This document shows, piece by piece, positions 29,943-30,750 of a stretch of DNA of 48,007 nucleotides (positions within the stretch are counted from its first letter, which is position 1; each line of letters starts with the position of its first letter). The stretch is from an uncultured Clostridia bacterium (GTDB taxonomy: Bacteria; Bacillota; Clostridia; TANB77; CAG-508), in assembly GCA_947629625.1 (NCBI GenBank), contig CANRES010000004.1, positions 1 to 48,007 on the forward strand. The letters are read 5' to 3'. The position numbers and the translations under genes are program-made. The notes under the pieces are model-generated. The model worked only from the letters and a program-made list of their open reading frames with translations. It was not told where the DNA came from and searched no databases.

Positions 29943-29978
29943 TTGTATACAGAAAAATCTTCGATTTTTCCTATACAA
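29943..29978 (+). repeat. Palindromic hairpin C
   Basis: TTGTATA (29943-29949) with TATACAA (29972-29978), and inside it AAAAATC with GATTTTT around TTC. The right arm TATACAA can instead pair with TTGTATA at 30024-30029 and its neighbours, so hairpins C and D exclude each other. Confidence 0.55.
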
Positions 29979-29979
29979 T

Positions 29980-30021
29980 AAAAAAGAGAAACTAGATAGT
30001 GATTATCTAATTTCTTTTTTT
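29980..30021 (+). terminator. Intrinsic terminator of the alpha operon (hairpin D)
   Basis: TAGATA (29993-29998) with TATCTA (30004-30009), extended by GAAA/TTTC, followed by seven T. A longer version includes TATACAATA and TATTGTATA as outer arms (29972-30029). Confidence 0.75.
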
Positions 30022-30047
30022 ATTGTATAGAAATTCTTATAAAAGTA

Positions 30048-30076
30048 TTGAAAAAGTGAATTTTTTATGTTAAAAT
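30048..30076 (+). promoter_or_regulatory. Promoter of the type III toxin-antitoxin locus
   Basis: TTGAAA (30048-30053), 17 bp, TAAAAT (30071-30076). Transcription would start near 30083, just ahead of a 7-bp hairpin (AGTAATA/TATTACT, 30091-30108) and the tandem repeats. Confidence 0.75.
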
Positions 30077-30108
30077 GAATATACTGAATAAGTAATAGCA
30101 ATATTACT

Positions 30109-30213
30109 AAAAAAGATGGAGTACCCAAGCCATAGTGGGAATTAAAAAAGATGGAGTACCCAAGCCATAGTGGGAATTAAAAAAGATGGAGTACCCAAGC
30201 CATAGTGGGAATC
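30109..30213 (+). repeat. Three perfect 35-bp tandem repeats (antitoxin units)
   Basis: Units at 30109-30143, 30144-30178 and 30179-30213 are identical except for the final base of the third (C instead of T). Each begins AAAAAAGATGG and ends TAGTGGGAAT plus one base. There are no spacers between them, which separates this from a CRISPR array. The 35-nt unit length equals that known for the AbiQ antitoxin and is one less than for ToxI of Pectobacterium. Confidence 0.95.
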
Positions 30214-30221
30214 AAAAAATA

Positions 30222-30252
30222 AGGGGGCAACTTTTTAAAGTTGCCCTTTAAT
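30222..30252 (+). terminator. Leaky terminator between antitoxin repeats and toxN
   Basis: GGGCAACTTT (30225-30234) pairs with AAAGTTGCCC (30237-30246), extended by G-T and A-T pairs. The following tract is only TTTAATAAT, so termination should be partial. In this family that partial stop keeps antitoxin RNA in excess over toxin mRNA. Confidence 0.85.
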
Positions 30253-30270
30253 AATATTTAGGAGGTAAAA

Positions 30271-30750
30271 ATGGAAAAATTAAAACTTTATTATATAGAA
30301 AATAATTATATAGAATATTTAAGAAAATTTGATAGCAAGGTAGCATACAACAAAATACCTAATAGACCATATATAGGAGTTGTATATACATATAATAATT
30401 TTAAATATTTTGCACCTTTAAGTTCACCAAAAGAAAAACATATAAAAATGAATAATAATGTTATAGATTTATTTAAAATAAAAAATGGTGAATTAGGTGT
30501 TATAAACTTAAATAATATGATACCATGCCCAGAAAAAGTATTACACGAAATTATACCAATAGTAAAAGATGATAAATATAAAAAATTATTAGAAAATCAA
30601 ATTACTGAAATTAATTCAAAAAGAGAAAATTTATATAAAAAAGTATATAGATTTCAAAGAGAATATAGAAACAATAGATTATTTCCTAATATTCTAAATA
30701 GATGTTGTAATTTTATTTTATTGGAGCAAAAATGCATAGAATATAAATAA
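30271..30750 (+). CDS. toxN: Type III toxin-antitoxin system endoribonuclease toxin, ToxN/AbiQ family
   Basis: 159 aa, the family length. The family toxin is a sequence-specific endoribonuclease held inactive by its repeat RNA, and it often aborts phage infection. Recognised features in order: YYIENNYIEYLRKFDSKV (7-24, cf. the ToxN N-terminus with YIxYLxxFD), RPYIGVVYTYNNFKYFAPLS (32-51), the active-site segment LSSPKEKH (50-57; Ser51, Ser52 and Lys54 align with Thr52, Ser53 and Lys55 of Pectobacterium ToxN), LGVINLNNMIP (75-85), and a basic C-terminal helical part ending CNFILLEQKCIEYK (cf. CNFSLLEEKY in ToxN). No frameshift or lost active-site residue is visible. AGGAGGT precedes the ATG. 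It follows the repeats and terminator by 18 bp. A CptN relative is the main alternative, but the 35-nt repeats favour ToxN/AbiQ. Confidence 0.92.
   Translation: MEKLKLYYIENNYIEYLRKFDSKVAYNKIPNRPYIGVVYTYNNFKYFAPLSSPKEKHIKMNNNVIDLFKIKNGELGVINLNNMIPCPEKVLHEIIPIVKDDKYKKLLENQITEINSKRENLYKKVYRFQREYRNNRLFPNILNRCCNFILLEQKCIEYK

Follow-up and report, generated by a model that had tools for sequence, protein, structure and literature searches.

A chromosomal ToxIN-type locus of an uncultured Clostridia bacterium whose antitoxin repeats are predicted to form H-type pseudoknots

Three 35-nt repeats located upstream of a toxin gene in an uncultured Clostridia bacterium very probably fold into RNA pseudoknots that would hold a ToxN toxin in check. 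The repeats were found in the window, a stretch of 48,007 nt from contig CANRES010000004.1 (GCA_947629625.1). We are highly confident that they are part of a ToxIN-family type III toxin-antitoxin locus on the chromosome, operating by the leader-array-terminator-ToxN mechanism proposed below. The locus is ToxIN-type, hence of a known kind, and a pseudoknot antitoxin is not new for the type III class. The antitoxins of the ToxIN family are known to be H-type pseudoknots (PMC5086642, PMC8860590). A pseudoknot is present in all type III antitoxins with a crystal structure dating from 2016 or before (PMC5086642), and in the later one from E. coli (PMC8860590).

Organisation of the locus and identity of the toxin

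The gene order in the window is rpoA, rplQ, a compact module (30048-30750) and dxs. From 5' to 3', the module contains a promoter-like site, a leader hairpin, the 35-nt tandem array, a terminator-like hairpin, a ribosome binding site and a 159-aa ORF (Table 1). The promoter-like site is weak when taken alone, since about 2.9 equal sites are expected in shuffles of this AT-rich region. A TATAAT or TAAAAT hexamer followed by GAATATA is found again 5' of the arrays of relatives. When the terminator-like hairpin was scored against shuffles, the latter gave a mean of 0.3. Between rplQ and the module, an AT-rich long inverted repeat (29974-30027) looks like a bidirectional terminator 3' of rplQ. It is also present in the congeneric genome G002, which has no toxIN.

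Table 1. Positions of the module features in the window
Feature	Position	Strand	Basis
Promoter-like site TTGAAA-17-TAAAAT, 5' of the array	30048-30076	+	10/12 matches, TG preceding the second hexamer
Leader hairpin AGTAATA-GCAA-TATTACT, adjoining the first A6 run	30091-30108	+	fold; recurrence in related arrays
ToxI unit 1, A6 junction included	30109-30143	+	Tandem Repeats Finder, unguided search, covariation
Predicted stems of ToxI unit 1	S1 30116-30119/30130-30133; S2 30124-30127/30136-30139	+	
ToxI unit 2, identical to unit 1 in sequence	30144-30178	+	repeat analysis
ToxI unit 3	30179-30213	+	single change: final base C for T, outside the knot
Fourth A6 run, predicted ToxN cut site	30214-30219	+	cleavage by analogy, PMC8860590
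Intrinsic-terminator-like hairpin, antitoxin/toxin spacer	30222-30249	+	12-bp stem, loop of 4, T-rich tail
Ribosome binding site AGGAGG of toxN	30260-30265	+	sequence
toxN, ToxN/AbiQ endoribonuclease toxin, 159 aa	30271-30750	+	PF13958, PDB matches, PADLOC AbiQ
Minimal extent of the module missing in G002, rplQ-dxs interval	30077-30735		comparison of flanks with locus L123

The ORF matches Pfam PF13958 (ToxN_toxin) with an E-value of 2.1e-40 and the AbiQ model of PADLOC with 8.1e-39. Its closest match in the PDB is B. thuringiensis ToxN (4ato, 1.1e-19), followed by P. atrosepticum ToxN (2xd0, 4.7e-16); further matches are E. coli ToxN (7d8o) and AbiQ (4glk). The active site of P. atrosepticum ToxN has been described as comprising Y29, K33, T52, S53 and K55 (PMC5086642). 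Segment S51-S52-P53-K54 of the window toxin aligns with the T52, S53, K55 segment, and S51 and S52 are invariant among the relatives aligned; Y29 and K33 fall in a gapped loop of the alignment, so that the match covers Thr/Ser-Ser-x-Lys. Membership of the CptIN family was rejected: a search of solved chains with a limit of E = 1 gave no CptN (4RMO), the matches being to ToxN/AbiQ instead. No NCBIfam model scored above threshold, and a search of viral contigs with the window toxin as query did not find a ToxN relative. The array is also unmatched in Rfam, whether the gathering threshold or a limit of E = 5 is applied, with no more than chance hits.

According to published criteria, type III toxin-antitoxin systems are recognised by a toxin homologue, a terminator and tandem repeats. 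Here, a ToxN-family ORF is preceded by upstream repeats (35 nt, 3.2 copies), with a terminator hairpin between them, and the H-type antitoxin fold of ToxIN emerges from prediction and covariation.

Folding and covariation of the antitoxin units

Tandem Repeats Finder delimits the array as 30108-30219 (period 35, 3.2 copies, 98% matches). The unit cores (30115-30139, 30150-30174 and 30185-30209) are each preceded by an A6 run, and one more run follows the last core (30109-30114, 30144-30149, 30179-30184 and 30214-30219). Within each unit, the elements ATGG, AGTA, CCCA, AG, CCAT, AG and TGGG succeed one another, in unit 1 at 30116-119, 120-123, 124-127, 128-129, 130-133, 134-135 and 136-139. The interleaved tetramers on which the original prediction was built are thus exact in every unit, and on the + strand of the window the succession ATGG..CCCA..CCAT..TGGG is found in these three units only. 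As the three copies are identical in the knot region, evidence from covariation must come from relatives.

Pseudoknot-aware folding had been proposed as a check. We ran it unguided, searching the unit for H-type pseudoknots of any loop length in which both stems have 3 pairs or more. The search returned exactly ATGG/CCAT (stem 1, S1) and CCCA/TGGG (stem 2, S2), with loops of 4, 2 and 2; 5 of 1000 dinucleotide-preserving shuffles score as well. The predicted loop lengths are therefore recovered, with the reservation that loop 3 is effectively 3 nt long unless the outer A-U pair forms. In most of the 20 units submitted to the same search, a knot was found on the same stem-2 region. Many units of relatives, taken individually, are unexceptional when compared with their own shuffles.

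Covariation was studied with 161 units from 57 loci whose arrays share the general plan of the window array. Because of shared ancestry, these are not 161 independent events. The units were picked with a regular expression fixing an (A/G)G dinucleotide and a later C(C/T). Since it fixes those bases, the first two pairs of S1 are partly built into the selection, and S2 and S1 pairs 3-4 alone are free of this bias. Pairs were scored from the positions of the motifs, with swapped partners as controls, rather than from the MAFFT alignment, because MAFFT misplaces the loop-3 gap among units of different loop length.

S2, formed by the four bases after loop 1 and their downstream partner, is fully Watson-Crick in 137 of the 161 units and has at least three pairs in all 161. 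When the partner strand is borrowed from a unit having another stem, four pairs are attained in 6% of cases. The relatives' units display 12 distinct helix sequences, and about seven or eight separate compensated changes can be counted. Several of these changes distinguish units of one and the same array. At L034, whose toxin is 69% identical to that of the window, unit 3 has CCTA/TAGG alongside CCCA/TGGG. The L036 array combines CCCT/AGGG, TCTT/AAGA and TCCT/AGGA, and that of L102 combines GTCA/TGAC, TTCA/TGAA and GCTT/AAGC. Changes of the same type are CCTC/GAGG to CTTC/GAAG in the L074 group and CCCA/TGGG versus TCCA/TGGA in L100 and L063. Such matched changes between units of one array, read from sequence, are the strongest evidence for S2. 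The CCCA/TGGG stem has thus withstood the proposed refutation, namely homologous repeats lacking compensatory changes.

The picture for S1 is more limited. Numbering its pairs from the inside, so that pair 4 is the outermost A-U of ATGG/CCAT, pairs 1 and 2 are almost always G-C in relatives. In the AATA group, pair 2 becomes A-U on both sides in 3 of 13 units, with zero mismatches. In the closest group, each of the 15 distinct units forms pair 3, be it U-A, U-G, C-G or G-C. The third pair is A-A in most units of the subgroup L036, L038 and L018, and mostly C-A in the inner units of the larger GCGGTGAA group, which offers U-G or U-A as an alternative inner pair. Pair 4 is formed in 5 of the 15 closest-group units, which is the chance level. 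The predicted conserved S1 is therefore of 3 bp (UGG/CCA) in the group of the window, with a 2-3 bp G-C core across the family. Of the ATGG/CCAT stem initially put forward, three pairs are supported by covariation and the outermost A-U is not conserved. Altogether, the claim that the antitoxin RNA is an interlocked H-type pseudoknot is well supported by the unguided search and by covariation in relatives.

Alternative readings, processing and proposed mechanism

The units could instead form just a CCCA/TGGG hairpin with an 8-nt loop, ATGG/CCAT being a coincidence or a motif read by the toxin. Nested folding of the window unit does return this hairpin alone as the minimum-free-energy structure (-4.6 kcal/mol), at a stability no better than that of shuffles (z = -0.43). 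Moreover, S1 is no longer than 3-4 bp, and the near invariance of its two inner G-C pairs may reflect conservation of sequence. However, the maintenance of pair 3 by four different base pairs, the two-sided change of pair 2 in the AATA group and the interlocked topology common to all solved ToxI RNAs (PMC5086642, PMC8860590) argue against a lone hairpin, which we regard as improbable. Still less credit can be given to the idea that the repeats are DNA sites, operator-like or iteron-like, controlling toxN. Tandem identical 35-nt repeats 5' of a gene can be binding sites, but this array has a promoter-like site on one side and a terminator-like hairpin on the other, and its relatives change in step with RNA pairing, including compensation within arrays, which is not required of DNA sites. 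In addition, the adjoining gene encodes ToxN, a toxin known to have an RNA array of this type as its antitoxin (PMC5086642). The DNA-site reading is thus very unlikely.

The pseudoknot reading leaves the question of how the units are separated. A clean A-run at each junction had led to the suggestion that the A6 runs are self-processing sites, and one may imagine ribozyme-like units. The array matches no known self-cleaving ribozyme family in Rfam, and in known systems A-rich junctions are cut by the toxins ToxN and CptN (PMC8860590, PMC4627078, PMC5086642). Self-cleavage by the units is accordingly very hard to believe, and the self-processing part of the original prediction is best abandoned in favour of ToxN, which is the cutter in characterised ToxIN systems (PMC8860590). 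In these systems, the cut junctions are AA/AU, GAA/AU and AAA/AA, the latter in the B. thuringiensis system, closest to that of the window (PMC8860590). Junction A-runs are present throughout the relatives with 35-39-nt units. By analogy, the A6 runs fit ToxN cleavage, and four runs would allow release of all three knots with both tails.

The following mechanism can be proposed. The promoter would drive synthesis of a short RNA composed of the leader hairpin, three 35-nt antitoxin units and the terminator, and occasional read-through of the terminator would yield ToxN. Each unit would fold into an H-type pseudoknot with S1 = UGG/CCA (the outer A-U being optional), S2 = CCCA/UGGG and single-stranded A6 flanks. 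As in characterised relatives, ToxN would cut the A6 junctions, thereby freeing the units, and would then be held with them in a closed, inactive ring. In line with the nearest solved relatives, this ring would probably contain three toxins and three RNAs. If transcription stops, for instance upon phage infection, the antitoxin RNA would run down and ToxN would cut cellular or phage RNA. A role in phage defence is suggested by the same characterised relatives. Gene order, toxin homology, the covarying fold and the presence or absence of the module as a unit all derive from sequence.

The leader hairpin abuts the first A-run. Among 51 related arrays, 44 have a stem of at least 5 bp that ends at most 6 nt from this run, versus 20.5 expected from shuffles. 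These hairpins have 24 different 5' arms, and leader folding gives a mean z of -1.48 over 56 loci. The evidence is moderate because the chance expectation is high in AT-rich sequence. We found no description of such a hairpin in the ToxIN literature cited here. Tentatively, a 5' leader hairpin, conserved and covarying, might belong to the ToxIN antitoxin transcripts of the order and stabilise the antitoxin precursor as a cap, an idea that we hold to be possible rather than probable. The cap function itself is a guess.

Relation to known systems and distribution

B. thuringiensis ToxIN (4ATO) resembles the window locus most: it has the closest solved toxin, an H-type pseudoknot and a terminator between antitoxin and toxin. 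Its repeats are of 34 nt, in 2.9 copies, cut at AAA/AA in the A-run (PMC5086642, PMC8860590). It is plasmid-borne, whereas the window locus is chromosomal (rplQ-dxs interval), and its unit sequence differs from the 35-nt unit of the window. AbiQ/antiQ of Lactococcus lactis (4GLK) has a toxin of the same family, and antiQ, with 2.8 copies of 35 nt (PMC5086642), is near the 3.2 copies of 35 nt in the window. The likeness concerns toxin family and repeat dimensions; the window toxin is only about 39% identical to ToxN/AbiQ proteins of lactococcal plasmids. CptIN of Eubacterium rectale (4RMO) is also a chromosomal type III system with a pseudoknot antitoxin. In contrast to the window unit, that of CptI is of 45 nt, its loop 1 is a single base and its loop 2 is long and A-rich (PMC4627078).

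The P. atrosepticum and E. coli ToxIN systems (2XDD, 7D8O) share with the window an H-type pseudoknot of two short stems, A-rich single-stranded flanks and a G preceding the final strand of S2 (PMC8860590). Their copy number is 4.6-5.5, as compared to 3.2 in the window. The last pair of S2 in E. coli ToxI is a non-canonical U-U, engaged with the G before it in a U:U:G triplet (PMC8860590). By register, a canonical A-U is predicted at this position in the window, whereas 36-nt relatives such as L025 (CCCT-TG ... G-T-AGGG) retain U-U. The locus is new in detail only, through the recurrent leader hairpin and the canonical A-U in place of the E. coli U-U.

The module is present or absent as a unit. 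In G002, flanks 96.6-96.8% identical to those of the window bring dxs directly after rplQ, with neither array nor toxN (L123). The whole module of about 0.7 kb is missing at this site in G002, so that gain or loss affected promoter, array, terminator and toxin as one block. ToxN is encoded in 135 of 388 genomes of the order. ToxN matches are numerous in some genomes of the same family (9 in G154, 7 in G096), which suggests that type III modules accumulate in small genomes.

The genome of the window itself (G000) contains further ToxN fragments at the ends of contigs C43 (L003) and C65 (L002). At L003, an array of three units with a 58-nt period, read by eye, lies 5' of the ToxN fragment. Also by eye, its S2 differs from unit to unit yet is self-complementary each time (GCAC/GTGC, AATAT/ATATT, GAAAC/GTTTC), and at least one additional hairpin is seen in loop 3. 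Similar unit-specific patterns are visible by eye in L012, L101, L104, L107, L111 and L116.

Nine other loci (L075, L076, L077, L079, L089, L092, L093, L095 and L105) encode ToxN homologues, about 36-40% identical to the window toxin, without upstream tandem repeats. A conserved leader in single copy, around AATCTTTTA.GAAATCCAAGAAAA, is common to these loci and is followed in some by a terminator-like hairpin; they possibly use a non-repeat antitoxin.

The locus leaves the known ToxIN mechanism unchanged. A pseudoknot first noticed by eye has become a tested one within a well-understood family. Because Rfam has no match, the relatives could seed an RNA-family model. Their natural variation, with compensated changes even within single arrays, documents covariation in ToxI and provides direct sequence evidence for a fold otherwise known from a handful of crystal structures.
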